Shown: piece by piece, positions 12,935 through 51,123 of the stretch | Layout of the letters: every line of letters starts with the position of its first letter | How positions within the stretch are numbered: position 1 is the stretch's first letter | Assembly (NCBI RefSeq): GCF_003369445.1 | Contig: NZ_QRCU01000018.1 | Span: forward strand, 62,001 to 126,000 | Source: Arthrobacter silvisoli | Lineage (GTDB): Bacteria; Actinomycetota; Actinomycetes; Actinomycetales; Micrococcaceae | Direction: 5' to 3' | Length of the DNA: 64,000 nt | Notes under the pieces: generated by a model | What the model was told of the DNA's origin: nothing | Databases searched by the model: none | The model's input: the letters and a program-made list of their open reading frames with translations, nothing else | Program-made: the position numbers and the translations under genes

Positions 12935-12966
12935 CGGCGTGGTCCATGCTTGAGCCCGACACCCCG

Positions 12967-32195: not shown

Positions 32196-32265
32196 GTGAA
32201 TCTTGGTCCTTCCGGAAAGTTCGGGACATGCCGGCTGTGGCTGTCCCTCGCGGTTGAAAAATCAG

Positions 32266-34232: not shown

Positions 34233-34238
34233 CTGGCT

Positions 34239-35225: not shown

Positions 35226-35228
35226 TGT

Positions 35229-36737
35229 TCAGACTCCCTGGACTGCAAGTTGAAGATATTCCTCGTCAGCGATGTCGCTGCGGGGGATGTCACGGATGAC
35301 GGAGCCGTCCTTGAGGACGAGGACGCGGTCGCTGACCGCGAGGAGCTCGGGGTATTCCGAGGAAATGACGATGACGGCTTTGCCCGCGCTGGCGAGTTCG
35401 CGGATCATGTCCAGGATCTCGCTCTTGGTGCCGATGTCGACGCCGGCCGTCGGCTCGTCCAGGATCAGGATGTCCGGGTCGGTGCCCAGCCACTTGGCGA
35501 TCACCACCTTCTGCTGGTTTCCGCCCGAAAGCAGCCGCACCGGGCGGTTCGGGTGGGCGACCTTCACCGCGAACTTCTTGATGAGGGACGAGGACAGATC
35601 CTTGCCCTTCATGGAATCAAGAAACGGTCCCCGCGTGATCTGGCCAAGCAGGGGCAGCAGCAGGTTGTCGCGGACAGAGTGGTCCAGGACCAGGCCCTGA
35701 GCCCGTCGATCCTCGGGAATGAGGGCGACGCCGGCGTCAATGGCCTGCTGGGGCGAGTTCAGGTTGACCTTTTCGCCGCGGATAAGGATCTCGCCGCTTT
35801 CGCGACGGTCGATCCCGAAAAGTGCCCGGGCGAGTTCGGTGCGGCCGCTGCCCATGAGACCGGCCAGGCCCAGAATCTCCCCCGGGCGGAGCGAGAAGGA
35901 GACGTCCCTTACCCGTGGCCCGGCATTCAGCCCGCGGACCTCCAGCAGGGGCGCACCCTCATGAGCGACGTGGTCCCGCTCCCGGTAGGCAAGCTGGCCC
36001 TCGATCTTCTTGCCGACAATGCCCTCCACGATCTGTTCCGGCGTCACGGCAGTCAGCGGCTCGGTGAGGAGTCTGGCGCCATCCCGGAGAATCGTGATCC
36101 GGTCGGCCAGCCGGTAGACCTCATCCATGCGGTGAGAGATGTAGATGATCGAGATACCACGCTGCTTGAGCCGGTCAATCAGCTCGAAGAGCGCTTCCGA
36201 CTCGTGACGGGCAAGGCTTGCAGTGGGTTCGTCCATGATCAGCACCTGGGCGTTCTGGGAGAGCGCCTTGGCGATCTCGGTCAACTGCCAGTAGGCCGTG
36301 CCTAGCCGGGAGACCTCGGCCTGCGGGTCGACGTCCACCTCCATCTCGGCGAAGACTTCCTTGGCCCGCCGCACCGAGGCGCGGTCGTCGATGAACCCGC
36401 CCATGCCGAGCGGCTCAGCAGCAAGGAAGATATTCTGAGCGACGGTCAGGCTCGGTACGAGACTGAATTCCTGGAAGACCATACCGATGCCGGCGGCCTT
36501 CGCGTCCTGAATCGAGTTGATGGTCGCCGGTTTGCCGCCAATGACGATCTCGCCGGCGTCGGCCTGATAGACGCCCTGCAGGATCTTCATAAGCGTGGAC
36601 TTCCCGGCCCCGTTGCCTCCTGCGAGGGCGTGGACCTCGCCCTTCCGGACGTCGAAGCTGACATCCTTCAGAACCGAAACGCCGTTGAAGCCCTTGGAGA
36701 TCGAGCGCATCTCGACGACATTGTCTGCGGTGTTCAT
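35229..36737 (-). CDS. Sugar ABC transporter ATP-binding protein, RbsA type, two ATPase domains
   Basis: A 502-residue protein with two ABC domains, as in RbsA/MglA. The first has Walker A ALAGGNGAGKSTLMKIL, a Q-loop near YQLDAKA-equivalent QEFSLVPSLTVAQN and Walker B ALSQNAQVLIMDEPTASL. The second has the degenerate P-loop LAGLMGSGRTELARALFG, the signature RLLSGGNQQKVVIAKWL and Walker B DILILDEPTAGVDIG. It lies between the binding-protein and permease genes (52 and 3 bases). It powers the importer of this operon. Confidence 0.94.
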   Translation of the reverse strand: MNTADNVVEMRSISKGFNGVSVLKDVSFDVRKGEVHALAGGNGAGKSTLMKILQGVYQADAGEIVIGGKPATINSIQDAKAAGIGMVFQEFSLVPSLTVAQNIFLAAEPLGMGGFIDDRASVRRAKEVFAEMEVDVDPQAEVSRLGTAYWQLTEIAKALSQNAQVLIMDEPTASLARHESEALFELIDRLKQRGISIIYISHRMDEVYRLADRITILRDGARLLTEPLTAVTPEQIVEGIVGKKIEGQLAYRERDHVAHEGAPLLEVRGLNAGPRVRDVSFSLRPGEILGLAGLMGSGRTELARALFGIDRRESGEILIRGEKVNLNSPQQAIDAGVALIPEDRRAQGLVLDHSVRDNLLLPLLGQITRGPFLDSMKGKDLSSSLIKKFAVKVAHPNRPVRLLSGGNQQKVVIAKWLGTDPDILILDEPTAGVDIGTKSEILDMIRELASAGKAVIVISSEYPELLAVSDRVLVLKDGSVIRDIPRSDIADEEYLQLAVQGV

Positions 36738-36789
36738 GGTGTGCCCTTTCGGGACGGTGCGGGGTTGGTCCCCGCACCGCCGGGTCTGG

Positions 36790-37950
36790 CTACTTCTTGT
36801 AGGACTCTTGGATGTCCTTCGGAGCGTCCTCGTGGTAGACCTGCTTCCAGGCTTCCAGGACGTTGGAGTGGTCGACCGGGAGGGCGCTCAAGGCCACATA
36901 AGCCGGTGCCTTCTTGCCGATCAATGCACCTGCGGCCAGCCGGGCCTCCGTGACTCCCTGGTCGAAAGGAACCTGGGCGCCGAGCCCAACGACCAACTGG
37001 TCTTTAGCCAGGGCAATGGCAACGTTCTTACCGAGGTCCTCAGTGGCGATCTTCAGGTCCTGGCGGCCCGCGGCGCGTGCTGCGGCCATGACACCTTCTG
37101 CGGGGACATCCCACACGGCCCAGATTCCGTTAAGGTCGGCGTGCTTGCTCAGCATGGCGTTGGCAGCTGCCTGGGCATCTCCGGCGAAATCAGGGCCTGC
37201 GATGCCCTTCTCCTCGACAATCTGGACATTCGGGTAGTCCTTGGTGATCGTCTCCTTGAAGCCCTGGTAGCGCTGCTTGGTCACAAAGAAATCAGCCTGG
37301 TGGAAGACAACGCCGATCTTGCCCTTGCCGCCGATGGCCTTGGCCATCTGGTGCGCCGCGACGACACCGTTGCCGTAGTTGTCGGCGGAAACGACGGAAA
37401 CGTAGTCCTTGCCGGCAGTCAGCCCCTGAGGAATGTTGTCCATGAAGACGAGCTTCGTTCCGGCAGCCGCTGCCTTCTTGTAGGCCGAGGCCGTGGCCAC
37501 GGGGTCAGTGGGGATGGAAACAATGATGTTCGGGTTCTGCGTCATCACGGTCTCGATGTCCGACACCTGCTTGTCCGGCTTAAAGTTTGCGTCCGTTGTC
37601 GCGATGACTTTGATGCCTAGCTTTTCGAATTCGCTCTTCAGGCCGTTGGTCTGTGCGGTGGCCCAGTCGTTGCCGCCGTAGTGCATCACGATTGCGGCCT
37701 TGGCATTGAGCGCCTTGATCTTCGCAATCTCTTCGGGCGTGAGATCTGCTGTCGATGCCGGTGAAGGCGTCTCGCCGTTGGGGCCCTTGCTCAGGACTTG
37801 TCCCTTGATCTTGTCAAGGGCCTGTTGGGCTTTCTCGGACACGCCGGTATCAGGGGCGTTTGAGCTGCCCGAGGTCGAACTGCTGCAGGAAGCGACGGAA
37901 ATTGACAGGGCTGCGGCCAAAGCCACAAAGGGAAGCCTGCGGATCATCAT
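36790..37950 (-). CDS. Sugar ABC transporter substrate-binding lipoprotein
   Basis: A 386-residue periplasmic-binding-protein-like lipoprotein (Peripla_BP_4). The leader MMIRRLPFVALAAALSISVA ends in the lipobox VASC (C22). The ligand-binding fold is seen in KAAIVMHYGGNDWATAQTNG, NIIVSIPTDPVATASAYKKA and KLVFMDNIPQGL. The N-terminal 45 residues after the cysteine are a low-complexity linker. It provides ligand specificity for the ribose-type importer; cyclitols and aldoses are both possible ligands. The unknown small gene precedes it by 51 bases. Confidence 0.92.
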   Translation of the reverse strand: MMIRRLPFVALAAALSISVASCSSSTSGSSNAPDTGVSEKAQQALDKIKGQVLSKGPNGETPSPASTADLTPEEIAKIKALNAKAAIVMHYGGNDWATAQTNGLKSEFEKLGIKVIATTDANFKPDKQVSDIETVMTQNPNIIVSIPTDPVATASAYKKAAAAGTKLVFMDNIPQGLTAGKDYVSVVSADNYGNGVVAAHQMAKAIGGKGKIGVVFHQADFFVTKQRYQGFKETITKDYPNVQIVEEKGIAGPDFAGDAQAAANAMLSKHADLNGIWAVWDVPAEGVMAAARAAGRQDLKIATEDLGKNVAIALAKDQLVVGLGAQVPFDQGVTEARLAAGALIGKKAPAYVALSALPVDHSNVLEAWKQVYHEDAPKDIQESYKK

Positions 37951-38001
37951 TGTTCTCCAGTGCTTGTGGGAGGGATAGGTGGGTGGATGGTTGAGGTCAG
38001 G

Positions 38002-38481
38002 TCAGGCCAGGGCAATGGCGAGGGAAGGGGGTACCGGTGACAGGACGAGTCCACCGGCGGCTGCAGCTGTGCGGACGGCGGCAGCCTTGTCTGAAGCCCT
38101 AACGAGGGCCTCTGCGTGCTTTTTGTCGACGAAGAGCCCCAGGGAGCACGGTCCATAACGGGCTTGAACCCACTTCACCGCCTGACCCGCCGCCTTGGTC
38201 ATGTCGCCGGCCGCCTCAGCGACCGAGCCGTCAACGGTCGACAGCCACTCAGGAGCCCCGGCATGGTCGACGGAAACGACCAAGCTGGTCCACAGGCTGT
38301 CGTTATCGAATACGCCGACGACAGCCGAGGAGCCTGCCGAAACGAAGGTTCGGACAGCAACTGCGAGATCATCCCGCGCAGCGTCCGCCAGGAGCAGTTC
38401 CAAGTTTGCCCACTGGGCCGGGTCGATGTTTCGACGGCCAACGCCCGGATCGGCTAAGAGTGCGTCGGCAGTGTCGCTCAT
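38002..38481 (-). CDS. Unknown 159-residue protein, first gene of the sugar operon
   Basis: A 159-residue protein starting at ATG 38481, with GGAGCGGG ahead; an extension to 38517 would run into the operator region. It has no signal peptide or membrane segment. The composition is rich in Ala, Val and Asp, with notable stretches LELLLADAARDDLAVAVRTF, VGVFDNDSLWTSLVVSVDHA and AVKWVQARYGPCSLGLFVDK. I do not recognise a family. It is the promoter-proximal gene of the importer operon, ahead of the binding protein, and so may be a sensor, chaperone or small enzyme of the pathway. Confidence 0.65.
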   Translation of the reverse strand: MSDTADALLADPGVGRRNIDPAQWANLELLLADAARDDLAVAVRTFVSAGSSAVVGVFDNDSLWTSLVVSVDHAGAPEWLSTVDGSVAEAAGDMTKAAGQAVKWVQARYGPCSLGLFVDKKHAEALVRASDKAAAVRTAAAAGGLVLSPVPPSLAIALA

Positions 38482-38512
38482 CCCGCTCCATCTCCATTGA
38501 GGTGATCGTTTC

Positions 38513-38569
38513 GTCAACGTTAACGATGGTTCCGTTAACGTTTACGGAAAAGAGCGTAAACGTTCACGG
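38513..38569. promoter_or_regulatory. Three tandem LacI-type operators with AACGTT cores
   Basis: Three sites lie between the divergent operon and its LacI gene: GTCAACGTTAACGA (38513-38526), CCGTTAACGTTTACGG (38532-38547) and GCGTAAACGTTCACGG (38554-38569). Each is centred on AACGTT with near-symmetric flanks, the layout of LacI/GalR-family operators. Centre-to-centre spacing is about 20 and 22 bases, close to two helical turns, so dimers could bind on one DNA face. Confidence 0.72.
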
Positions 38570-38689
38570 AGATGGGTGTCAAGCATCACAGCGAAAGTTG
38601 CTCGGCGGGCCCCGGCGAGCCGCGACATAAGATGGAGGGCGTACAAAACCGTCGCCGGCTCGACCCACGCAAGGAGGACAGGAGGGAGC

Positions 38690-39754
38690 ATGACAGGCAT
38701 GGCGATCCCCCGCGAGAACAATGGCCGGACTGCCGACGCTCCTTTGCGCCGGAAGCCGACCATCAACGATGTCGCCCAACTTGCAGGCGTCTCGTTCGGG
38801 ACGGTCTCGAGAGTCCTCAACAATGCCCCCGATGTCAGCGCCTCGACCCGTGAACGGGTCCTTCAGATCATCAAGGACATCGGCTACCGCCGGAACCGCG
38901 CAGCCACCGCGCTGGTCACAAGCCGTTCGACCTCCATTGGCATACTGTCGGATGGCTCCCCACGGTTCGGGCCTGTGGGAACACTCATGGCACTTGAGAA
39001 CGTGGCGCGGAACAAGGGCTACGCCACGACAGTAATCAGCGTCCAAAAACCCTACGAAGATTCCGTCCAGGCCGCCCTCGACAGTCTGGACGATACGGGC
39101 GTAGGGGGGATTATCGTCATCGCACCTCTCGTCGAAATGGCAGCGGCCGTCTGGAATGCGTCATGCCGCTTGCCACTGGAGATGATCGCAGCCGGCGCGT
39201 CGTCAACTCCAAACGTTTTCACATACTCAGAGAATCAGGAGCTCGGGGCGAGGCTGGCCACGCAGCACCTCATCGACTTGGGCCACACCGACATCGCGCA
39301 TCTCGCTGGCTCCATGGATTGGTTCGATGGACGGGTGCGCAAGCGCGGCTGGGAAGCGGCGCTCCGTGACGCCGGCCTCGAACCAGGCCTGTGCATCGAA
39401 GGTGACTGGAGCCCCCGGTGGGCCTACGAAACCGGCCTTCAACTTGTCCGGGAAGGAAAGGTTCCCCAAGCGATCTTCGCCGCCAGTGACCATACCGCAC
39501 TCGGGTTGATCCGCGCCTTCGCCGAGAATGGCGTCCGTGTCCCCGATGATGTCAGTATCGTGGGATTCGACGACGTTGAAGGGTCGGATTTTTTCCTGCC
39601 TCCGCTGACCACGGTGCGGCAGGACTTCACTGCATTGGCACTTATGAGCACCGAAGTGCTTATCGGTGCCATGGAAGGGCGCGAAGTGGACCGTACGCCG
39701 ATCGCACCGAGACTTATCGTGCGCAACAGCACCGTCTGCGCCACTTCCCGCTGA
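38690..39754 (+). CDS. LacI family transcriptional regulator
   Basis: A 354-residue regulator starting at ATG 38690 behind AGGAGGACAGGAGGGAGC. The HTH is PTINDVAQLAGVSFGTVSRV followed by LNNAPDVSASTRERVLQIIK and the hinge. The periplasmic-binding-like effector domain includes TSIGILSDGSPRFGP, GGIIVIAPLVEMAAAV and FAASDHTALGLIRAFAENGV. It is divergent from the seven-gene sugar operon and very likely its repressor, acting at the three AACGTT-centred sites between them and perhaps on its own promoter. Confidence 0.92.
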   Translation: MTGMAIPRENNGRTADAPLRRKPTINDVAQLAGVSFGTVSRVLNNAPDVSASTRERVLQIIKDIGYRRNRAATALVTSRSTSIGILSDGSPRFGPVGTLMALENVARNKGYATTVISVQKPYEDSVQAALDSLDDTGVGGIIVIAPLVEMAAAVWNASCRLPLEMIAAGASSTPNVFTYSENQELGARLATQHLIDLGHTDIAHLAGSMDWFDGRVRKRGWEAALRDAGLEPGLCIEGDWSPRWAYETGLQLVREGKVPQAIFAASDHTALGLIRAFAENGVRVPDDVSIVGFDDVEGSDFFLPPLTTVRQDFTALALMSTEVLIGAMEGREVDRTPIAPRLIVRNSTVCATSR

Positions 39755-40294: not shown

Positions 40295-40314
40295 CTGAGT
40301 TAGCGATAAATCAG
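40295..40314. promoter_or_regulatory. Degenerate LacI-type operator, distal site
   Basis: CTGAGTTAGCGATAAATCAG matches 16 of 20 bases of the perfect palindrome at 49068-49087. It lies 196 bases before the start of the binding-protein gene, where a second repressor dimer could bind for looping. Confidence 0.5.
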
Positions 40315-40426
40315 CGATCATGACTGAAGCGGTCGAGCGCAAGTATCTCGGATTTCCCCCTATTTTCAGGTGTTTTCAGGGGAAAAGCTAGTGGCTTTCC
40401 ATATTCAACGAATTTTTTGAAAAGTC

Positions 40427-40456
40427 TTGATAGTGCGCTAACTCACCATGTAACTT
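40427..40456 (+). promoter_or_regulatory. Candidate promoter with overlapping LacI-type operator
   Basis: TTGATA (40427-40432) and TAACTT (40451-40456) are spaced 18 bases apart, just ahead of the importer operon. The operator-like sequence at 40427-40446 overlaps the -35 element; its right half GCGCTAACTCAC is identical to the right half of the palindrome at 49067-49088. Binding there would block RNA polymerase. Confidence 0.5.
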
Positions 40457-40509
40457 GTCTCACTAAGCCCCAAAGGCGGGGTGGTCACGAACACGAGGGA
40501 GTGTTGTTC

Positions 40510-41601
40510 ATGCAGAGAATTGGAACGGGAATCCGTCGGAGCAAACGGCTTGCCACGGTGGCACTGTGCGCTTCCATCCTGACGGTCGGTACGCTCGGGC
40601 TGGCTGGCTGCAAAGGTGGCGCTGCCGCGGTCGGCGGCAGTGGGAAGGCTTCCGATGAGAGGCTGGTCATCGGCTGGAGCCAGCGTGGCATCAGCGGCAG
40701 CGACTGGTGGAAGACCCTCGTTGAGGGCGGTCAGGCTGAGGCCGGCAAGGTCGGGGCGCGGCTGGAACTGCTGGACGCCAACGGCGACACCGTCCGGCAA
40801 AATGCCGATGTTCAGACCCTGATCACCAAGGGCGTTGACGTCGTCGTCATGAATCCGAATGACCCCATTGGCGTCGGTCCTTCAATTCAGGCGTTGAAGG
40901 ACGCGGGCATCCCGGTTGTGACAGTCAACTCGAGTGTAGATAAATCTCTGGTTCCCGACATGTTCTGTTACGTCGCGGAGGACCAGGAACATACCGGATC
41001 GCTCGCGGGCAAGGTGGCCGCCCAGCGGGCACTTGAGAAGTTTGGGGACAAGGGGAAGATCAAGATTGTCGGCATTGGAGGCTTCCCGGGAGATGTGCTG
41101 AGCGACCTTCGGTTCAATGGCTTCATGGCGGGCTGGAACAGTGTCATGCAGAAGCATCCAGGCGTCACCACCGTCAAGCTGGACACCAAGTACGGTGAGT
41201 GGAAACCGGACAAGGCTCTGGCCCCGATCCGTGATGTTGCGACTGCAAACCCGGACCTCAAGGTTGTCTACAGCATGAGCGATGTCATGCACGGTGGCAT
41301 CGTGCAGGGCCTGCAGCAGGCCGGCCTATGGGGTGACGGCATCATCATGGCCAGCTACGACGGTGGCATGGGAGCCATCAAAGAGATGGTGGATAACCCG
41401 AAGGGCCCGCTCCAAGCCGACGCGTCCAACCAGCCGTGGGATCAGGGGGCTGCCGCAGTGCGCATGGCGATCGCGGCCGTCAAGGGCGACCAGGCTCAAT
41501 GCCCGGGCAAGACCAAGTACATCGATACGACCGTGGTCACTCCCGCTGATGCGGCCGAATACTACGTCCCCAAAGACACCTACGTCCGCGCCAAAGGCTA
41601 A
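40510..41601 (+). CDS. Sugar ABC transporter substrate-binding lipoprotein
   Basis: A 363-residue binding protein starting at ATG 40510, with GAGGGAG ahead. The basic leader and hydrophobic stretch end in the lipobox LAGC (C34). The Peripla_BP_4 fold is visible in RLVIGWSQRGISGSDWWKTL, VDVVVMNPNDPIGVGPSIQA and IPVVTVNSSVDKSLVPDMFC. It heads the second ribose-type import operon, under the candidate promoter and operators upstream. The ligand could be a free sugar, a glycoside or another hydroxylated compound; it cannot be read from the sequence. Confidence 0.92.
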   Translation: MQRIGTGIRRSKRLATVALCASILTVGTLGLAGCKGGAAAVGGSGKASDERLVIGWSQRGISGSDWWKTLVEGGQAEAGKVGARLELLDANGDTVRQNADVQTLITKGVDVVVMNPNDPIGVGPSIQALKDAGIPVVTVNSSVDKSLVPDMFCYVAEDQEHTGSLAGKVAAQRALEKFGDKGKIKIVGIGGFPGDVLSDLRFNGFMAGWNSVMQKHPGVTTVKLDTKYGEWKPDKALAPIRDVATANPDLKVVYSMSDVMHGGIVQGLQQAGLWGDGIIMASYDGGMGAIKEMVDNPKGPLQADASNQPWDQGAAAVRMAIAAVKGDQAQCPGKTKYIDTTVVTPADAAEYYVPKDTYVRAKG

Positions 41602-41679
41602 ATCCGCCGGCCCGGTCAGCAGTCTTCAACCCGTTCGGCCTCGAAGTCCTGGTTCGAAAGTACTAGTTAAGGAACATCT

Positions 41680-43263
41680 ATGTCCGCCAACAACCAAGTC
41701 CCGGTGGCATCTGCCCCCGGGATCGCAGGGGAACCGCCTTCACCTGCCCCAGAGCTCGAACTCGAACTTGAGGGCATCACCAAGTCCTACCCTGGCGTGA
41801 AGGCGCTGAAAGGCGTCAGCTTCAGCGTCGGCCGCGGATCGATCCACGCGTTGGCCGGGCAGAACGGGGCCGGCAAGTCCACGCTCGTCAAGATCCTTTC
41901 CGGCGCCGAATCCCCGGACTCCGGGAGCATTCGCCTGGGTGGCGAGCTCCAGCGTTTCCGGGATCCAATGGATGCCCAGCAGGCTGGAATTCACACCATC
42001 TACCAGGAACTTTCGCTCGTACCATCCCTTTCCGTGGCCGAGAACATTTTCCTCGGCAAACTGCCACTGCGCAGTGGTGCGGCCGTGGACTGGCAGCGGA
42101 TGCAGGCCCAGGCGCGCATCGCGCTGGACCGGGTGGGGTTTGACCTGGACGTGCGCCGTCCCGTCGGCAGCTACTCCACCGCTGAGCAGCAGGCAGTGGA
42201 ACTGGCAAAGGCGCTGCACAAGGACGCGCGGATCCTTCTGCTGGACGAGCCCACATCTACGTTGCCGATGCCCGATGTCGAGCGGCTCTTCACTGTCCTG
42301 CGGTCCCTGTCCGAACAGGGGGTGACGCTCCTTTACATCTCCCACCGCATGGATGAGCTCTTCTCGCTCTGTGATGCGGTAACCGTGTTGCGCGACGGAG
42401 TGAACGCCGCCGATTTGAAGACGGCAAGCTCGAAGCCGGCCGACGTCGTTACGGCCATGGTCGGGAAAAGCCTCGAAGGGTCCATCGCCGACGCTGCACT
42501 GCGCGGAGAACGCTCGCCTCGACTCGGCCCCGGCCCACGCGAAGGCGTCATCCTCACTACCCGCGGCCTCTCCGAGCAGGGATACGTGGACGAGGTGTCG
42601 TTCGATCTGCGTGCGGGGGAGGTCCTGGGCCTCGCCGGGCTAATCGGCAGCGGCCAGTCCGAGCTTGCAGGCCTTATTGCGGGAGCACGGAAGCGCACCT
42701 CCGGCGAGATGAGCGTCGATGGGCAGGCTGTGGAATTCCGTGCACCGCGGGACGCGATCCGCCGCGGGATCGGGCTGCTGCCGCAGGACCGGAAGGCCGC
42801 AGGCTTCATCCCTGACATGGGTGTTGCCGGCAATATCACTTTGGCCAGCCTGCCCCAGTTCAGCCGGCTGAGTGTGATCCAGTCGCGGCGGGAGCGCAGC
42901 GTGGCCGCTGACATGGTCGACCGTCTGGGCATGAAGGTCTCCGGCGTAACCCAGCCCCTGAAGACACTGAGCGGCGGGACCCAGCAGAAAGCGATCCTGG
43001 CCCGGTGGCTCGTCCGCCAATCGCGCATCCTCGTATGCGATGAGCCGACCCGCGGAGTGGACGTCGGGGCCAAGGAAGACATGTACGAGCTCATCCGCGA
43101 GTTCGCGCAGGCCGGCGGAACCGTCGTCGTGGCGAGCTCGGAGATCACCGAGGCGATGATGTGTGACCGAGTACTGGTCATGGCCCGCGGCCGCGTCGTC
43201 GCAGAACTCGACCACGACGACATCGACCCCGCCGGCAACGCCATCCTCGAACGATTTGCCTGA
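41680..43263 (+). CDS. Sugar ABC transporter ATP-binding protein, two ATPase domains
   Basis: A 527-residue RbsA/MglA-type protein. The first domain has Walker A ALAGQNGAGKSTLVKILSGA and Walker B ALHKDARILLLDEPTSTLPM, the second the degenerate P-loop LAGLIGSGQSELAGLIAG, the signature LKTLSGGTQQKAILARWL and Walker B SRILVCDEPTRGVDVG. About 30 extra N-terminal residues precede the first domain. It follows the binding protein by 78 bases. It is more diverged from the other RbsA-type protein in the window than a recent duplicate would be. Confidence 0.93.
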   Translation: MSANNQVPVASAPGIAGEPPSPAPELELELEGITKSYPGVKALKGVSFSVGRGSIHALAGQNGAGKSTLVKILSGAESPDSGSIRLGGELQRFRDPMDAQQAGIHTIYQELSLVPSLSVAENIFLGKLPLRSGAAVDWQRMQAQARIALDRVGFDLDVRRPVGSYSTAEQQAVELAKALHKDARILLLDEPTSTLPMPDVERLFTVLRSLSEQGVTLLYISHRMDELFSLCDAVTVLRDGVNAADLKTASSKPADVVTAMVGKSLEGSIADAALRGERSPRLGPGPREGVILTTRGLSEQGYVDEVSFDLRAGEVLGLAGLIGSGQSELAGLIAGARKRTSGEMSVDGQAVEFRAPRDAIRRGIGLLPQDRKAAGFIPDMGVAGNITLASLPQFSRLSVIQSRRERSVAADMVDRLGMKVSGVTQPLKTLSGGTQQKAILARWLVRQSRILVCDEPTRGVDVGAKEDMYELIREFAQAGGTVVVASSEITEAMMCDRVLVMARGRVVAELDHDDIDPAGNAILERFA

Positions 43264-43299
43264 CGGCACCCCACCCAGATTCCTACCAGGAGAACAACC

Positions 43300-44358
43300 A
43301 TGTCCCGGACCCTGTCGCCCCTGCCCCAGCGCAGTGGCACCCCATCCCCATCCATCAGTATCGGCTCACGCCTGCGGGGCAGCGCCCTCCGCGCCCTGCC
43401 GAAGAGCTACCTTATCCTCGTGCTCCTCGCGATCCTCGCGATCGGCTACTACGTCTCCGACGACTTCCTGACGTTCCGCAACGCCGAAAACGTCATCACC
43501 GCCGCCTCGATCGTCGTCGTGCTCGCCATCGGCCAATACTTCGTCATCCTGACGGGCGGCATCGACCTCTCCGTCGGGTCGATCCTGGCCATGTCCACCG
43601 TTCTGACGGCACTGACCTTGCAGGCTGGAATGCCCGCCGGCGCGTCCGCAGTGTTCGTGCTTGCCTGTTGTGCCGTCGCCGGATTGATCAACGGCATCCT
43701 CGTTGTTTGGTTGAACATCCCTCCATTCATCGCAACGCTCGCCATGATGAGTGCCGTCAAGGGCTTCAGCTACATCATCCAGTCAACAAGCCTGATCGAG
43801 ATCCGCGACCAGGGGTTCATCCAGGTCTTCTCCCGCGGCAGCATCCTCGGCATCCGCAACCCCGTCCTGATCTTCATCATTGTTGCCGTGGTCGCGGCTC
43901 TTGTGGCCAAGTACACGACGTTCGGCCGCTCCCTCTACGCGATTGGCGGCAACCCTGAAGCCTCGCGCCTTTCGGGCCTGCCCGTCGCGCGGAACCTGAT
44001 CGTCACCTATACCATTTCCGGGGTTCTGGCTGGCCTGGCAGGCCTTGTCGCGGCGGCCCAGCTACGGCAGGGAAGCTCGCTCATCGGCGTAGGTTACGAA
44101 CTCGACGCCATTGCTGCCGTCGTGGTGGGTGGTGCCTCCCTCATGGGCGGAAAGGGCGATCCACTGAACGCGGTGATCGGCGTGTTCATCCTGACGACCA
44201 TCATCAACATCATGAACCTGGTAGGCATCTCCTCCGAGCCGCAGTTGCTGATCAAGGGCGCAGTGATCATCCTTGCCGTCTTCCTCTCCAGCGCAGGCGG
44301 CGTCCAAAGGATCTCAGGATTCTTCTCCAAACATTTCCGGCGCCCGCAGGCCGCCTGA
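43300..44358 (+). CDS. Sugar ABC transporter permease, ribose type
   Basis: A 352-residue permease with about ten membrane helices after a basic N-terminus of about 40 residues. Family marks are FVILTGGIDLSVGSILAMST, VAGLINGILVVWLNIPPFIA and AAVVVGGASLMGGKGDPLNA. It completes the second importer, 36 bases after the ATPase gene, with AGGAGAA before its ATG. The next gene, for an aldo/keto reductase, starts 46 bases later, so the enzymes are in the same transcript. Confidence 0.92.
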   Translation: MSRTLSPLPQRSGTPSPSISIGSRLRGSALRALPKSYLILVLLAILAIGYYVSDDFLTFRNAENVITAASIVVVLAIGQYFVILTGGIDLSVGSILAMSTVLTALTLQAGMPAGASAVFVLACCAVAGLINGILVVWLNIPPFIATLAMMSAVKGFSYIIQSTSLIEIRDQGFIQVFSRGSILGIRNPVLIFIIVAVVAALVAKYTTFGRSLYAIGGNPEASRLSGLPVARNLIVTYTISGVLAGLAGLVAAAQLRQGSSLIGVGYELDAIAAVVVGGASLMGGKGDPLNAVIGVFILTTIINIMNLVGISSEPQLLIKGAVIILAVFLSSAGGVQRISGFFSKHFRRPQAA

Positions 44359-44404
44359 CCGGATACCCATCCCCAACTCATTCATCAGCAGAAAGCAGGA
44401 ATTC

Positions 44405-45355
44405 ATGTCCATTCGTCCCTTCGGCCGCACGGATCTGGCCGTCTCCGATATCTGTGTCGGCACGAGTGCGCTCGGGAGCTTTCCCGCCCAGTACGGCTAC
44501 GAAGTCGATGAGGACACCGCCGTCGCCACCATCCACCGCGTCTTCGACGGGCCCTTCACCTTCATCGACACCTCCAACGAATACGGTGGGGGCGCCAGCG
44601 AAGAACGGATCGGTCGCGCGATCGCCGAGCGCGGCGGCATTCCCCAGGGATACGTCGTCGCTACGAAGGTCGACCCGATTCCCGGCAGCGCCGACTTCTC
44701 CGGTGACCGCGTCCGCAGGTCTGTCGAGGAAAGCCTCGAGCGCCTCGGCCTCGATAAGCTCCAGCTTGTCTACCTGCATGACCCGGAGAAGATTTCCTTC
44801 GAGGAAGGAGTGGCCAAGGGAGGACCACTCGAAGCCCTCGTCGATCTCCGGGACCAGGGCGTGATCCAGTACCTGGGCGTCGCCGGCGGCCCGATCGAGC
44901 TGGAGCTGCAGTATCTTGCGACGGACGCGTTCGACGCCGTCATCAGCCACAACCGCTACACCCTGGTTGAACAGACCGCCGAGCCACTCCTCGAGGACGC
45001 AGCCCGGCGCGGAGTCGCCTTCGTCAACGCCGCCCCGTTCGGCGGCGGGATGCTCGTCAAGGGACCGCGGGCCGTTCCTCGCTACTGCTACGCACCCGTG
45101 GACCAGGCAACGATCGATCGGGTCCTGCGCATGGAAGCGCTGTGCGAGCAGCACGACGTCCCACTGGCCGCGGCCGCCCTGCAATTCTCGGTGCGCGATG
45201 AGCGCGTGACATCCACCATCGTTGGCATGTCCCGCCCGGGCCGGGTCGAGGAGACCCTCCGGCTGCTAAACCATGACATCCCCCAGGAACTCTGGGACCA
45301 GCTGTTGCCTCTTGCCAGCGTGGGCCGGAACGGCATTGAAGCCGTAACGGTCTGA
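44405..45355 (+). CDS. Aldo/keto reductase (aldose 1-dehydrogenase / pyridoxal dehydrogenase branch)
   Basis: A 316-residue aldo/keto reductase starting at ATG 44405, with AGCAGGA ahead. The catalytic tetrad is visible: D55 and Y60 in FIDTSNEYGGGASEERIG, K88 in VVATKVDPIPG and H125 in LVYLHDPEK. The NADPH-site region near the end includes TSTIVGMSRPGRVEETLR. The closest branch contains D-threo-aldose (L-fucose) 1-dehydrogenases, which make sugar lactones. It lies between the importer and the GMC oxidase genes; oxidation of the released sugar, or reduction of a keto-sugar, is plausible. Confidence 0.86.
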   Translation: MSIRPFGRTDLAVSDICVGTSALGSFPAQYGYEVDEDTAVATIHRVFDGPFTFIDTSNEYGGGASEERIGRAIAERGGIPQGYVVATKVDPIPGSADFSGDRVRRSVEESLERLGLDKLQLVYLHDPEKISFEEGVAKGGPLEALVDLRDQGVIQYLGVAGGPIELELQYLATDAFDAVISHNRYTLVEQTAEPLLEDAARRGVAFVNAAPFGGGMLVKGPRAVPRYCYAPVDQATIDRVLRMEALCEQHDVPLAAAALQFSVRDERVTSTIVGMSRPGRVEETLRLLNHDIPQELWDQLLPLASVGRNGIEAVTV

Positions 45356-45398
45356 CTGTCGGGGCGAGTAGCAGGAATTCACGAAAGGAAATGAAGCA

Positions 45399-47051
45399 AT
45401 GACCAGGAAGAAGCGGCCCGAGCCGGTCGACGTCGTCATCGTCGGCGCCGGTGCGGGCGGGGCAACTGCGGCAAAGGTGCTGTCCGAGGCAGGCCTGAAG
45501 GTGGTGGGCCTCGAGCGTGGGCCATGGCTGAAACCCGAGCACGCTTCGGGCGACGAGCTGAAATTCCTCAACCGGAACTTCATCTGGCAAGACCCGAAGG
45601 TCAAGCCCCGGACCTACCGTCCGAACGACAAGGTCGAGGCGGAAATCACCAACTTCTCCGCGACGCCGCAGGTGGTCGGTGGGGGCACCACCCACTGGGG
45701 CGGCATGGTCCCCCGGATGGCGGAGAGCGATTTCAAGCTCCGCAGCCTGCACGGCGACGTTCCGGGTGCGAGCCTGGTCGACTGGCCGATCTCCTATGAC
45801 GAGCTGGAGCCGTACTACACGCGGGTTGAATGGGAGTTCGGCACATCCGGCCTGGCAGGAGCAAACAAGTGGGAAGCGTGGCGGAGCCGCGGCTACCCGA
45901 CCAAGCCCTCGCCCCTGAGCCAGATCGGCCGGACCTTTGCCACCGCCATGTCCAAGCTCGGCCACAGCACATTTCCCATGCCACAGGGCATGGTGACCGA
46001 GACCTACCGGGGCCGCCAACCATTCAGCGAGAACGGCTTCTGGCAGCAGTATCCCGATCCCGGCAACGGCAAGTCCTCTACGCTGATCAGTTTCATTCCC
46101 GACGCCATTGCAACCGGCCGTTACGACCTCCGCCCCGACTCCTATGTCAGTGAGATCCTCGTGGGCAAGGACGGCCGCGCCACCGGAGTCCGCTACCAGG
46201 ACGAGGACGGAGACGAATTCGTCCAGCACGCCAAGGCCGTCATCGTCTGTGGCGGCGGCATCGAAACGCCCCGCCTGCTGCTCATGTCGAAGTCCGGTCT
46301 CTTTCCGGACGGCCTCGGCAACGGCAGCGGCATGGTCGGCAAGAACGCCACCTTCCACCAGTATTCCTTCTCCGTCGGCCTGTTCGACCGTGAGGTGAGC
46401 GATCCCCTGTACGGGTGGGCAGGCCACTACATGAGCCTGTGCTCATTTGACTTCTACGAAACAGACGAGAGCCGGGGCCACATCCTGGGATCGCTCATTT
46501 TCCCTTCAATGATCGGCCACCCGGTGAACTGGAGCTTCCCCGGCCGGCCCACGTGGGGGCAAGCAGCGAAGGACGCGGACCGCGAATTCTTCAACCACAG
46601 CATGAAGATTGGCGTCCTGCTGCACGATCTGCCGGTCGAGGACAACAGGGTCGACCTCGACCCGAACGTCAAGGACGCGTGGGGCCTGCCGGTCGCCCGG
46701 ATTACCCATACGCCCCACTCCAACGACTTCGCCCAGGAACGCTGGCAGGTCGCCAAAAACGGGGAAATCCTTGAGGCCGCAGGCGCGAAAAAGGTCATCC
46801 CGGTCAATATGGAGCGGATCACGGGCAACACCTCCCACGAACTGGGCACCGCCCGCATGGGCAACGACCCGGCAACGTCCGTCGTCGACCGCTGGTGCCG
46901 CTCCCACGAAGTACCGAACCTCTACGTCTTCGACGCAAGCTTCTTCCCGACCGCGACCGGCATCAATCCAGCCCTGACAATCATGGCCAACGCCTGGCGG
47001 TGCTCTGACCGGATCCTCCAGGTCGACCGCCACGGCTGGTCCGAAAACTGA
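45399..47051 (+). CDS. GMC family FAD-dependent oxidoreductase, large subunit type
   Basis: A 550-residue GMC flavoprotein. The FAD Rossmann motif is VIVGAGAGGATAAKVLSEAG (GAGAGG at residues 16-21), GGGTTHWGGMVPRM is the second FAD segment and the C-terminal active-site region includes GNTSHELGTARMGNDP and FFPTATGINPALTIMAN with the conserved His and Asn. No Tat or Sec leader is present, so it probably works inside the cell. With the next gene it forms the two-subunit pair known from gluconate 2-dehydrogenase and from sugar/glycoside 3-dehydrogenases. A 3-keto-sugar product is possible. Confidence 0.9.
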   Translation: MTRKKRPEPVDVVIVGAGAGGATAAKVLSEAGLKVVGLERGPWLKPEHASGDELKFLNRNFIWQDPKVKPRTYRPNDKVEAEITNFSATPQVVGGGTTHWGGMVPRMAESDFKLRSLHGDVPGASLVDWPISYDELEPYYTRVEWEFGTSGLAGANKWEAWRSRGYPTKPSPLSQIGRTFATAMSKLGHSTFPMPQGMVTETYRGRQPFSENGFWQQYPDPGNGKSSTLISFIPDAIATGRYDLRPDSYVSEILVGKDGRATGVRYQDEDGDEFVQHAKAVIVCGGGIETPRLLLMSKSGLFPDGLGNGSGMVGKNATFHQYSFSVGLFDREVSDPLYGWAGHYMSLCSFDFYETDESRGHILGSLIFPSMIGHPVNWSFPGRPTWGQAAKDADREFFNHSMKIGVLLHDLPVEDNRVDLDPNVKDAWGLPVARITHTPHSNDFAQERWQVAKNGEILEAAGAKKVIPVNMERITGNTSHELGTARMGNDPATSVVDRWCRSHEVPNLYVFDASFFPTATGINPALTIMANAWRCSDRILQVDRHGWSEN

Positions 47052-47084
47052 TCCATACCTCACAGACACGAAAGGAAAGCTCAC

Positions 47085-47798
47085 ATGGGACAGGCGGAAT
47101 GGGCCACGGTACCCATCTCTACCCGGGACGTTGACGGCCCGGTCTTCTTCACCGAGCACGAGTGGAAGACGATCGAGGCGGCGTCAGCCCGGATCATCCC
47201 CACCGACCACCACCCGGGTGCGCGTGAGGCCAAGGTCGTGCGCTTCATTGACCGGATGCTGGCAGGAACGCAGTTCATCTTCGCGGCCGCGGATGGCAAC
47301 GGGTTCCTCCGGCTGGAAGGCCGCGACGAAACAGCGTGGCAGGAGCGCATCAAACAGCGCCGGGAGTTTTACCGCGAGGGCATCGTGGAGTTGGACCGGC
47401 TAGCCAAGGAACGGGCCGAAGCCGAGTTCATCCGGCTTTCGGAAGAGGACCAGGACGCTGTACTCGAAACCCTTTCGGGCAGCCCCAAACCGAACACCTT
47501 CTCGCTCGGGCACTCCGAAGTTGGGCTTGGGGGCGCGCCGGCAGGCAATCAGCCCGTCAACGAGGACTTCCTGGAGTTCTTCCCCTTGCTCGTGCTGAAT
47601 ACCCGTCAAGGGTTCTACGGCGACCCGGTGTACGGGGGCAACGAGAACCGGGTCGGTTGGGGCGTCATCGGCTTCGACGGCCCCCCGTCGCTGGCGTCAA
47701 CCATGGACGGCAGCTACACCACCCGCAAGTACATGGTGGAGGGGGCAGAGTGGCCATACGATCAGCATCCCGAAGTCCTGCGCTTCCGGCGCCCGTGA
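47085..47798 (+). CDS. Gluconate 2-dehydrogenase subunit 3 family protein
   Basis: A 237-residue small-subunit partner of the GMC enzyme encoded 33 bases upstream. Its family marks are FFTEHEWKTIEAASARIIPT with DHHPGAREAKVVRFIDRML, FFPLLVLNTRQGFYGDPVYG and GNENRVGWGVIGFDGPPS. Homologues usually carry a Tat leader and help export or assembly of the flavoprotein; here that leader is missing, which agrees with the leaderless large subunit. AGGAAAG precedes the ATG. A LacI gene starts 62 bases downstream. Confidence 0.88.
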   Translation: MGQAEWATVPISTRDVDGPVFFTEHEWKTIEAASARIIPTDHHPGAREAKVVRFIDRMLAGTQFIFAAADGNGFLRLEGRDETAWQERIKQRREFYREGIVELDRLAKERAEAEFIRLSEEDQDAVLETLSGSPKPNTFSLGHSEVGLGGAPAGNQPVNEDFLEFFPLLVLNTRQGFYGDPVYGGNENRVGWGVIGFDGPPSLASTMDGSYTTRKYMVEGAEWPYDQHPEVLRFRRP

Positions 47799-47860
47799 CA
47801 TTTGGCGCGCCGATCGGCGTCGCGCTACCGGACCGCTCGCGGGTGACCGAGGATAATGGT

Positions 47861-48940
47861 GTGGTGTCCACGACCCCAGTGCCCTCGGAAACCCGTACCT
47901 CCAACGGTCGTGGAGAGCGGCTGGCTTCCAGGTCAAAGGCCCCCCGGATGTCGGACGTTGCCCGGCTCGCCGGCGTATCGCAGCAGACGGTGTCACGGGT
48001 TGTCAGGGGAGCATCCAACGTAGATCCGGACATTCGTCAACGGGTCGAGCAGGCCATCGCACAACTGCGGTATCGGCGAAACCCGGCAGCTGCGGCTCTC
48101 GCCAGCAACCGGACCATGACGATCGGGGTTGTCAGCTTCGAACTATCCGTCCTGGGGCCAACAGTGGCCTTGTACGGTATTTCCGAGGAAGCGCGCCAAC
48201 ACGGCTATGCGACGCGTTTGGTCACACTGGCAAGTCTCCACCGGGACGATATCCGGGCCGCTTTTGAATCCATCAACTCGGACACGGTTGACGGCGTGAT
48301 CGTACTCGCGCCCCTCCTGGATGCCATCACGGTTCTCGAGGGCCTCGACATCGGCGTTCCCGTGGTCACATTCCAGCAAGGATCGCAGCCGAGTCCGACC
48401 AGCGTTTCCGTTGACGAAGTGCGAGGGGCACGGATGGTGGTCCGCCACCTGCTGGACCTTGGGCACGAAACGGTGTGGCACGTCCAAGGCCCGCCCGGCT
48501 GGATGGCAACATCCGCCCGCGTCCAAGGCTGGGCAGCGGAACTGGGGGCGGCTGGACGCTTCGTTCCGACCCCACTCGCAACGTCAGATTGGTCGGCGGC
48601 GGAGGGATACCGGGTTGGCTGTGAACTTGCCGCACGGCAGGACGTCACGGCGGTCTTCGCCGCCAACGATCCCTTCGCGCTGGGAGTAATCAAGGCCATG
48701 GACGAGGCCGGGCGCAATGTACCTGGCGACGTCAGCGTTGTGGGCTTCGACGACGTCAAAGAAGCGCCGTATTTTCGGCCGGCACTAACGACCGTGAAGC
48801 TGGATTTCGAAGCCATCGGTCACATCGCTGTGAGCCGTATCCTGGCCATGATCAAAGAGGAAGCCGAGGGAGACATCCCTCTGCTGGAACCGCGCCTGAT
48901 AGTCCGCGACACAACATCACCGCCGCGAAGCCAGCGCTGA
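47861..48940 (+). CDS. LacI family transcriptional regulator
   Basis: A 359-residue regulator. GTG 47861 is preceded by GAGG eight bases away and is preferred over the much longer frame that runs back through the previous gene. The HTH reads PRMSDVARLAGVSQQTVSRV with VRGASNVDPDIRQRVEQAIA and the effector domain includes MTIGVVSFELSVLG, DGVIVLAPLLDAITVLEGLD and FAANDPFALGVIKAMDEAG. It ends the importer/oxidase operon and lies beside the 22-base palindrome, so it is the natural regulator of both this operon and the nitrilase gene. Confidence 0.9.
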   Translation: MVSTTPVPSETRTSNGRGERLASRSKAPRMSDVARLAGVSQQTVSRVVRGASNVDPDIRQRVEQAIAQLRYRRNPAAAALASNRTMTIGVVSFELSVLGPTVALYGISEEARQHGYATRLVTLASLHRDDIRAAFESINSDTVDGVIVLAPLLDAITVLEGLDIGVPVVTFQQGSQPSPTSVSVDEVRGARMVVRHLLDLGHETVWHVQGPPGWMATSARVQGWAAELGAAGRFVPTPLATSDWSAAEGYRVGCELAARQDVTAVFAANDPFALGVIKAMDEAGRNVPGDVSVVGFDDVKEAPYFRPALTTVKLDFEAIGHIAVSRILAMIKEEAEGDIPLLEPRLIVRDTTSPPRSQR

Positions 48941-49066
48941 CCTAAAGCTGTACTGGCACCGCCTGCCGCTACTCAAGGCTCGATGCCTTGTCTGAATAAA
49001 CGGGCCCCGCCCACCTCCAGAAAACCAAGACACCAGGTCTTGCAATTCCCTACCAGATCGCAATAC

Positions 49067-49088
49067 CGTGAGTTAGCGCTAACTCACG
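49067..49088. promoter_or_regulatory. Perfect 22-base palindrome, LacI-type operator
   Basis: The half-site CGTGAGTTAGC at 49067-49077 is followed directly by its exact reverse complement at 49078-49088, with a central GC as in LacI-family operators. It lies 30 bases before the nitrilase ATG, after a possible promoter (TTGCAA at 49040-49045, AATACC at 49062-49067), and 126 bases after the LacI stop. Related sites occur at 40295 and 40427. Confidence 0.82.
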
Positions 49089-49117
49089 TACTCGAAGAAG
49101 AGAAAAGAGAGAAAGCA

Positions 49118-50209
49118 ATGGTCGATCCATTTGTCGTCGTAGCGGTTTCGCCGCGGACCATCAATGTGAAGAATCCCGGCGACGGCGTTGCCAACGTCAA
49201 GCGCATCAACGAATTCATCGATACGGCAGTGATGGTCGGGACCTGGGAGGGCTCACCGGTCAAGCTGGTTGTCCTTCCGGAGATGGCGATCCAGGGCATG
49301 ATCGCCAACACGCCGGGAAACCGCGAAAAGGAGCGCCACTTTGCCGTGACGATCCCTGGGCCGGAGACGGACGAGCTGGCGAAAAAAGCCGTGGAACTCA
49401 ACACCTACATCGCTGCCGAACTGTACATGGTGAAGGACGAGGACTTCCCCGACCGCCACTTCAATGTCGCCTTCATCATCGATCCGCAGGGCGAGATCAT
49501 CTATAAGCGCTACAAGGCCACCAGTGATGCCTACGAAGGCGGCATGCTCGGCAACATGAACCCGCACGACGTGTGGGACGAGTGGATTGAAAAGAAGGGG
49601 AACGGCAACCCAATGGACGCCATCTTCCCGGTGGCGAAGACCGAGATCGGCAACATCGGGTATGCCATCTGCCACGAGGGTGTCTACCCGGAAGTCGCGC
49701 GGGGCCTGGCCATGAACGGCGCCGAGATCATCATCCGGGGCACGCTGATCGAGCCGGCCGTCCAAAACGGCATGTGGGAACTGCAGAACCGTGCACACGC
49801 CATGTTCAACTCGGCGTACGTCGTCGCTCCGAACCTGGGGCCCGAAGTCCGCGAGGACGGGAGCATGCAGGACCTGTTCGGCGGCCAGTCCATGATTGTC
49901 GGGCCGCGGGGGCAGATACTCACCAAGCAGCAGGGCTGGACCTCCGGCGACTCGTTCGTCTGCACCACAATCGACATCGAGGCGCTCCGCCGCGCCCGTG
50001 TCTCGAACGGCTTGTACAACCAGTTCAAGGATCTGCGCACAGAGCAGTATCGGGTCATCTACGACAACCCGATCTACCCGAAGAACCAGTACCTCGATGC
50101 CCCGCCGAGCGAAGGCTGGCTGGCCCGGGAAGACTCAACACGGGCCGCCAATATCGAGAAGCTCATCGAGCGCGGTGTCCTCACGCCGCCGTCCGGCTAC
50201 AAGGCCTGA
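49118..50209 (+). CDS. Nitrilase superfamily C-N hydrolase
   Basis: A 363-residue carbon-nitrogen hydrolase starting at ATG 49118 behind AAGAGAGAAAGCA. The catalytic triad is visible: E55 in VVLPEMAIQG, K133 in IIYKRYKATSD and C185 in GYAICHEGVYPE. It is longer than amidases of the DUF-type (about 270) and close to nitrilases and aliphatic amidases (about 340-370). Both amide and nitrile substrates remain possible. It is transcribed alone between a LacI-type palindrome and a strong terminator, and probably belongs to the regulon of the importer/oxidase operon upstream. Confidence 0.88.
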   Translation: MVDPFVVVAVSPRTINVKNPGDGVANVKRINEFIDTAVMVGTWEGSPVKLVVLPEMAIQGMIANTPGNREKERHFAVTIPGPETDELAKKAVELNTYIAAELYMVKDEDFPDRHFNVAFIIDPQGEIIYKRYKATSDAYEGGMLGNMNPHDVWDEWIEKKGNGNPMDAIFPVAKTEIGNIGYAICHEGVYPEVARGLAMNGAEIIIRGTLIEPAVQNGMWELQNRAHAMFNSAYVVAPNLGPEVREDGSMQDLFGGQSMIVGPRGQILTKQQGWTSGDSFVCTTIDIEALRRARVSNGLYNQFKDLRTEQYRVIYDNPIYPKNQYLDAPPSEGWLAREDSTRAANIEKLIERGVLTPPSGYKA

Positions 50210-50230
50210 CTCCTGCAAGGCCTAAGGTAC

Positions 50231-50273
50231 GGAATTGGCCGGGGAACACGTCTCGTGGACCCCGGCCAATTCC
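50231..50273 (+). terminator. Hairpin terminator after the nitrilase gene
   Basis: GGAATTGGCCGGGG (50231-50244) and CCCCGGCCAATTCC (50260-50273) form a perfect 14-base-pair stem around a 15-base loop, 21 bases past the nitrilase stop. Confidence 0.82.
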
Positions 50274-51123
50274 ATGTGAGGGCGACCATGCCCCCCTGAG
50301 CGGGGACCGCAGGAGCGGCGCCACGCTTCTGCACGTCATGACGATCCCGATAAGTCCGATGCAGCCCAGAATGTCTTCCTCTTACTTCTGCGCCGGTCCG
50401 GAACGCGATCCCGTCTGTGGATGAACGGTCACGCGGCCCAGGCTGGGTCGCCGCTTCCACGTCCTGTGCTCCCAAACCGCCTACACGAAATGGGGACTTG
50501 ACGGACAGGAGATGGCGCTGGGGGAGGGCCGGCTTCCAAACCATCCTGAATGCGGCATTGAACCTTCGGGACTTTGTCCCCGGCTTGCCCCGGACAGACT
50601 TGCCCCGGACAGAAATGCACGGGCAAGGACCTGCGTTGGGCTCGGCTGAGCCGGGGATCTCCGGAGTCGGAGCGACCGCGCGCGTCCGTCACGGTAGTCC
50701 TTGCCCTCTAAACACTGCACCATACGTGGGGTCGGGCCTCACAATTCGCACAAAACTGGGTGTGCGCAATGTGCACGCCTGGGGCTTTGGATTCGATGGG
50801 GGGAGTGGCGGGTTTTCCATGGTTGGCGCCCGGTTCGAGTCCGGCCTCGCTTTCCTGGGCTGGTTGGGGTTCTGTGGTCTTGCTCCTTCATGGCGGGGTA
50901 GGAGCAGGACGAGATGACTACTGGCTGATTGGTGGTTTGCACTCCGCGGTCCGGAGGCGGGCGTGACGGTGTCCGTTTGTCCGGCTTCAACTTCACCCCC
51001 CGGGCCTCGCCGGCTTCAGAGTCGCGGGTGGTCGGAAGGCCTCCCGGCATGGAAGTTGCTTTCAAACGGATTACCTCTGGGGGTACTCTGGACGGACTTC
51101 GCTTTGAGGAGGCAGCCTGAAAG
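50274..51123. other. Sparse region, no convincing gene
   Basis: 850 bases without a frame I can support on either strand; the open frames are proline, arginine or serine rich and match no family. It contains a 15-base tandem duplication (50584-50613) and a T-arm-like stretch that does not fold into a tRNA. It looks like decayed or non-coding DNA. Confidence 0.5.
50584..50613. repeat. 15-base perfect tandem duplication
   Basis: CTTGCCCCGGACAGA occurs at 50584-50598 and again, directly adjacent, at 50599-50613. There are two copies only. Confidence 0.8.

Follow-up and report, generated by a model that had tools for sequence, protein, structure and literature searches.

Analysis of a 64,000-nucleotide stretch of the Arthrobacter silvisoli genome (the window; the whole genome has 4.35 Mb in 78 contigs) revealed a locus in which genes for an ATP-binding cassette (ABC) importer, an aldo/keto reductase, a GMC flavin dehydrogenase and a LacI-family regulator are followed by a gene of the nitrilase superfamily. 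Three operator-like sites, whose 18-base cores are named O1, O2 and O3, lie before the first and the last of these genes. All positions are given in window numbering. The orthologous set consists of 14 loci: the window, L070-L081 and L020, of which L020 and L075 are nearly identical. L003, L004, L005, L007, L008 and L009 overlap six of L070-L081, and each was counted once. Genus scans covered 206 genomes, and the order and phylum samples comprised 396 and 346 genomes. The sites and genes, in order, are the following.

40296-40313, no strand: O1, upstream operator copy; two mismatches to the 18-bp palindrome, two or three mismatches in 14 of 14 loci
40428-40445, no strand: O2, half-site copy; the 19 bases TTGATAGTGCGCTAACTCA (40427-40445) are invariant in 14 of 14 loci
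40510-41601, + strand: sugar-type substrate-binding protein of the ABC importer (Pfam Peripla_BP_4, 5.7e-46)
41680-43263, + strand: ATP-binding protein of the ABC importer, CUT2 (ribose/arabinose) kind; two ABC_tran stretches, below every NCBIfam equivalog cut-off
43300-44358, + strand: permease of the ABC importer (Pfam BPD_transp_2)
44405-45355, + strand: aldo/keto reductase; nearest solved relatives are L-galactose dehydrogenases
45399-47051, + strand: GMC flavin dehydrogenase; among solved proteins closest to FAD glucose and fructose dehydrogenases
47085-47798, + strand: small subunit, gluconate 2-dehydrogenase subunit 3 family (PF13618, 7.4e-31), the only PF13618 match of the genome
47861-48940, + strand: LacI-family regulator, proposed repressor of both promoters (family profiles; start codon inferred); no other LacI-family gene was seen in 14 of 14 loci
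49069-49086, no strand: O3, perfect palindrome before the nitrilase gene; exact in 14 of 14 loci and in Microbacterium L010
49118-50209, + strand: nitrilase-superfamily carbon-nitrogen hydrolase, predicted amidase (PF00795, 3.2e-31)

Sequence and conservation of the operator-like sites

A preliminary description of this DNA had reported a palindrome before the nitrilase gene, a copy matching it at 16 of 20 bases and a copy of its exact half-site, and all three are present in the sequence. The palindrome (49067-49088, CGTGAGTTAGCGCTAACTCACG) comprises 22 bp, is identical to its own reverse complement and has a central CG; 29 bases lie between it and the ATG of the nitrilase gene at 49118. The 20 bases at 40295-40314 differ from the matching 20-mer of the palindrome at four positions. 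The 12-base half-site GCGCTAACTCAC was found at 40435-40446, inside a 20-base frame at 40427-40446.

When up to three mismatches to the palindrome core were allowed, O1 and O3 were the only matches in the window, and 100 shuffles gave none. The genome-wide search, suggested in the preliminary description with at most four mismatches and made here with up to three, recovered these two sites and added no further target. For comparison, a first-order chain fitted to the window predicts 3.8e-6 exact matches per genome, 0.014 at up to two mismatches and about 4.9 at up to four.

All three sites occur in the 14 orthologous loci, where their distances to the importer and nitrilase genes agree. Comparison with the 20 bases on either side revealed that conservation is concentrated on the sites: mean pairwise identity is 0.88 for O1 versus 0.31 and 0.36 in its flanks, 1.0 for O2 versus 0.50 and 0.63, and 1.0 for O3 versus 0.76 and 0.94. 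Within the genus, the pattern TGAGTTAGCGNTAANTCA was found in 13 of the 206 genomes, 13 times before the nitrilase gene and six times before the importer gene. The O2 15-mer TGATAGTGCGCTAAC likewise occurs in 13 genomes, with one copy in each and always at O2. Palindrome motif and O2 core are restricted to the same 13 genomes, and these are exactly the genomes with a nitrilase at least 97% identical. The control pattern read backwards was found in none of the 206 genomes in the palindrome scan and in one in the O2-core scan. A chance origin of the sites was rejected on the strength of shuffles, whole-genome count and genus scans.

In the order, the exact palindrome 18-mer was found in one of the 396 genomes drawn, which is the source genome itself. 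Microbacterium L010 carries the exact palindrome 85 bases upstream of its own nitrilase gene, and in Microbacterium L010 and L012 the O2 15-mer is present before the importer gene; the stretch available for L012 ends before any nitrilase gene.

Minor variation was also observed around the sites. From start to start, O1 and O2 are 132-134 bp apart in 12 loci but 122 bp apart in L075 and L020, about one helical turn less. Weak palindrome matches with four mismatches lie 3' of the nitrilase gene at L076 14401, L079 14273 and L080 14387, one of them with a perfect GTTAGCGCTAAC core.

The encoded enzymes and the gene partners of the predicted amidase

Glu55, Lys133, Glu140 and Cys185 of the 49118-50209 product, the predicted catalytic residues, are unchanged in all 121 aligned sequences, which comprise the query and the 120 listed among 1268 matches. 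With a CN_hydrolase domain and the Glu, Lys, Cys and second Glu in place, the protein is assigned to the nitrilase superfamily and its activity is a predicted one. Its nearest solved or curated relatives are formamidase (81.9 of 406 bits) and aliphatic amidase (61.8 of 427 bits), and the curated nitrilase models were missed as well (NF040852, 50.7 of 500 bits; TIGR04048, 25.4 of 502.6 bits). Since all these cut-offs were missed by far, the names nitrilase, formamidase and aliphatic amidase were dropped for the enzyme; the gene is called the nitrilase gene here after its superfamily.

The importer has the make-up of the CUT2 kind, with a Peripla_BP_4 binding protein, a double ATPase and a BPD_transp_2 permease. 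The GMC protein contains both the N- and the C-terminal GMC domain and is adjoined by the PF13618 gene, which places it with the GMC oxidoreductases that have a PF13618 small subunit. The small subunit has no solved relative by sequence. In the homologues P0227 and P0238 the PF13618 small subunit and the GMC dehydrogenase form one chain, which supports a two-subunit enzyme. Assignment to a known GMC enzyme such as C-glycoside 3-oxidase was rejected because among solved proteins the GMC protein comes closest to glucose and fructose dehydrogenases (best E value 1e-44).

Analysis of the genus revealed the nitrilase gene in 20 of 206 genomes, 13 times at 97% identity or more and seven times at 66-69%, and each of the 20 has a PF13618 small-subunit gene no more than 2 kb away from it. 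The three genomes found in other genera of the order all have a PF13618 gene within 10 kb of the nitrilase gene. In the phylum sample only the source genome has a nitrilase match at E <= 1e-130, so the distribution of the gene is patchy.

The preliminary description had proposed a regulon that joins transport, sugar oxidation and C-N bond hydrolysis, and this proposal agrees with the finding that in other bacteria, too, the nitrilase gene lies among these genes and shares their strand. Several gene orders were found on one strand: importer, nitrilase, LacI, aldo/keto reductase, GMC dehydrogenase, small subunit and a second LacI in L033; nitrilase, importer, LacI, aldo/keto reductase and GMC dehydrogenase in L034 and L037, with the small subunit in L037; importer, small subunit, GMC dehydrogenase, nitrilase and aldo/keto reductase in L035, L036, L082 and L084-L086; and nitrilase, binding protein, small subunit and GMC dehydrogenase in L083. 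Sinorhizobium fredii NGR234 (L021, pNGR234b) carries in one stretch a GMC dehydrogenase (57% identity), a small subunit (49%), a nitrilase gene (64%) and a CUT2-type importer.

Two side observations concern these clusters. The nitrilase gene of L037 (9004-10076, genome G143) is split into two overlapping parts, apparently by a frame break or a sequencing error. In L083, an O2-like TGAGTGTGCGCTAAC with two mismatches (12936-12950) lies 65 bases before the nitrilase-first gene row; the nitrilase of this row is 68% identical, and the row adjoins araB/araD/araA and a 44% identical LacI.

The regulator and the proposed promoters and regulon

The product of 47861-48940 scored above the gathering thresholds of PF00356 (N-terminal helix-turn-helix) and PF13377 (C-terminal sugar-binding core) and is thus a member of the LacI/GalR family. 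Its orthologues in the other 13 loci are 91-95% identical. No other LacI-family gene was seen in all 14 loci, which makes this protein the likely repressor at O1-O3. The recognition helix SQQTVSRV is identical wherever it was read (window, L003-L009, L010, L011, L012 and L020). Changes in the helix accompany changes in the palindrome before the first gene, with TTGATAGCGCTATCAA in L033 and TGTGACCGGTCACA in L034 and L037; as it covers three groups, this covariation is no more than suggestive.

The closest named solved relatives of the regulator are E. coli LacI and a reconstructed ancestral LacI. The alignment to E. coli LacI runs through residue 335 of 360, and one residue of the window protein remains beyond it. 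In E. coli LacI, the residues after about 340 form the tetramerisation tail. The C-terminal tail of a lac-type looping repressor is therefore absent, looping between the sites is not expected, and lac-style looping between O1 and O2 is not claimed. Among the positions with sugar-pocket roles in E. coli LacI, 197, 220, 246, 274 and 293 are conserved, whereas 149 and 291 differ. A ligand that resembles a sugar but is not that of E. coli LacI would fit this pattern. As a side observation, remnants of the cluster in L006 (9750-11053) and L011 (3114-5370) have a full gene for this LacI beside a truncated small-subunit or GMC gene, with neither nitrilase gene nor operator.

Two promoters are proposed by eye from the alignment of the loci.

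40427-40454, + strand: proposed importer-operon promoter, TTGATA-N16-TGTAAC (TTGATA 40427-40432, TGTAAC 40449-40454)
49040-49067, + strand: proposed nitrilase promoter, TTGCAA-N16-AATACC

In the preliminary description the half-site was said to overlap the -35 region of the importer operon. TTGATA makes this plausible by eye, but the consensus scan found no sigma-70-type match there. O2 would be placed between the proposed -35 and -10 elements. O3 begins one base after the AATACC of the proposed nitrilase promoter, and the TTGCAA before it is kept in the window and in seven of eight other aligned loci, with TTGCGC in L010.

Our analysis suggests that the locus is probably a LacI-type catabolic regulon, in which one repressor acts on the importer/oxidase operon and on the amidase gene. 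The single regulon under the operon's own LacI, as put forward in the preliminary description, agrees well with sites present in 14 of 14 loci and confined to the same 13 of 206 genomes, and with this LacI gene in all 14. What the analysis shows directly is the three sites, their strict conservation, their restriction to the locus within the genus and the lasting association of the amidase and flavin dehydrogenase genes. At O1 and O2 the LacI protein would repress the operon, and at O3 the predicted amidase gene. A dimer at O2 or O3 would keep RNA polymerase off both promoters, because O2 would lie between -35 and -10 and O3 just behind -10. Since lacI lies in the operon, LacI would control its own abundance as well. 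Binding of the imported compound, or of a product of that compound, to LacI would release both targets, so that importer, dehydrogenase, LacI and amidase would rise together on induction. With a promoter of its own, the amidase could reach a level different from that of the other proteins and still respond to the same signal.

Several observations weigh against this reading. O2 as an 18-mer has four mismatches and by mismatch count alone is within chance; because about 4.9 such matches are expected per genome, it needs other evidence, namely its conservation. The right flank of O3 is itself 0.94 identical, a stretch that contains the ribosome-binding site. The 14 loci are relatives by shared descent, two of them nearly identical, and the counts are not independent events; the contrast between sites and flanks is for this reason a stronger argument than the genome counts. 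A good O1 was not found in Microbacterium L010 and L012, where the best matches have five or six mismatches, and cluster forms with a 66-69% identical nitrilase occur without the palindrome. The consensus promoter scan gave no sigma-70-type match in either proposed promoter region. Simple read-through from the operon may account for expression of the nitrilase gene. In addition, such a nitrilase is missing from 48 of the 68 genus genomes in which a PF13618 gene occurs, so the small subunit of the dehydrogenase commonly functions in its absence.

The read-through possibility leads to an alternative which we regard as unlikely, in which the nitrilase gene has no promoter of its own and is the last gene of the operon, and O3 acts only as a block or as a site controlling LacI. 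The gene starts 177 bp after lacI on the same strand, the terminator scan found no terminator-like site on the + strand from 48850 to 50400, and in relatives the gene lies inside the cluster. Opposed to this are the conserved TTGCAA before O3 and a perfect operator positioned as at a promoter. The preliminary description had called the nitrilase gene separate; given the gap, the strand, the terminator scan and its place among the importer and oxidase genes of relatives, it is less separate than that, and a transcript of its own is putative.

That a different LacI-family protein binds the sites, either the neighbour at 38576-39754 or the divergent LacI beside O1 in relatives, appears distinctly improbable. 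LacI-like genes do lie near O1 in many loci, one kind in the window, L073 and L077, and the other, divergent kind in L070, L075, L076, L080, L081 and L020, with the start of a divergent LacI at the contig end of L074 (= L009). The divergent kind has, where readable, the helix STQTVSRV, similar to SQQTVSRV. However, the neighbours are of these two different kinds, none was found near O1 in the stretches covered for L071, L072, L078 and L079, where all three sites are present, and the neighbour in the window carries a different helix, SFGTVSRV. The LacI encoded within the operon is preferred as the repressor.

We give little weight to the view that the nitrilase gene is a bystander outside the pathway, which came to lie beside the operon by chance of descent. 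It draws on the 48 of 68 PF13618 genomes without the gene and on more distant relatives: at 36-42% nitrilase identity, none of four plasmid loci (L022-L025; of nine under 60%) has a GMC or small-subunit gene within 8 kb. Against it, the gene is kept beside the dehydrogenase in 20 of 20 genus genomes, in three of three from other genera and in NGR234, and in several gene orders. Least credible of all is that the sites are chance matches or are conserved for a reason other than LacI binding, a view that can point to O2 alone being within chance and to part of O2 possibly being a -35 element, but that conflicts with sites conserved between diverged flanks, their restriction to the locus in 206 genomes and the perfect dyad symmetry of O3.

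Relation to known systems and a possible pathway

LacI-controlled catabolic operons are a familiar kind, and E. coli lac also has several operators around one catabolic operon. E. coli LacI is also among the closest named solved relatives of the window regulator. Unlike in lac, the regulator gene lies inside the operon, the protein has no tetramer tail and differs at sugar-pocket positions 149 and 291, the operator is another one, and one operator serves a downstream amidase gene. The binding protein, double ATPase and permease are of the same kind as in ribose-type CUT2 importers, but none reaches an NCBIfam equivalog cut-off for a named sugar. The GMC protein, which is adjoined by a subunit 3-family gene, has its best solved relatives among the FAD glucose and fructose dehydrogenases with a small subunit; unlike in these enzymes, no cytochrome subunit is encoded among the eight genes studied here. 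Formamidase and aliphatic amidase are the nearest relatives of the predicted amidase and its catalytic residues align with theirs, but its scores far below the cut-offs mark a separate branch. The S. fredii NGR234 cluster also unites GMC dehydrogenase, small subunit, nitrilase and CUT2-type importer, and differs in adding tagatose kinase and AgaZ/GatZ and in having no palindrome within four mismatches. The regulation is of ordinary LacI type, and the module of importer, flavin dehydrogenase and amidase is conserved. Neither the combination of a ribose-type importer, a GMC dehydrogenase with small subunit and a dedicated carbon-nitrogen hydrolase nor the operator was found in literature searches, which covered an open-access collection with few subscription journals.

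The neighbouring genes of other clusters point to ketose metabolism as a possible context: tagatose kinase and AgaZ/GatZ in NGR234, both above the NCBIfam cut-offs; in L082, a hexose kinase and a tagatose/fructose-bisphosphate-type aldolase that narrowly exceeds one subfamily cut-off; and araA, araD and araB in L083. Counterparts of the tagatose kinase, AgaZ/GatZ, aldolase, hexose kinase and araA/araD/araB genes are absent from the window operon, for which tagatose or arabinose products are therefore only a possibility. Cyanogenic-glucoside and iminosugar substrates were considered, with no evidence either way; a literature search on iminosugars yielded nothing relevant.

The importer may take up a polyhydroxylated, nitrogen-bearing compound, which the GMC dehydrogenase with its small subunit and the aldo/keto reductase would oxidise and in which the amidase would cleave an amide or similar C-N bond. 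As a tentative proposal, which we hold with less than even confidence, the genes could represent an undescribed catabolic pathway, present in Actinomycetota and Rhizobiales, whose substrate is a sugar-like compound with an amide or a lactam (e.g. a sugar amide, or a lactam formed by oxidation of an iminosugar), with import by a ribose-type ABC system, oxidation by a two-subunit flavin dehydrogenase and opening by a dedicated nitrilase-superfamily amidase, controlled in Arthrobacter by a single LacI, encoded within the locus itself, at three operators. The amidase and the flavin dehydrogenase, both orphans that travel together in Actinomycetota and Sinorhizobium, would in this way become a testable pathway, and a regulator with three predicted sites offers a direct handle on the inducer and hence on the substrate.

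A second catabolic cluster was observed at 31023-39754 of the window. It comprises two Gfo/Idh dehydrogenases, a xylose-isomerase-like TIM barrel, a CUT2-type importer on the minus strand and the LacI gene at 38576-39754 on the + strand.

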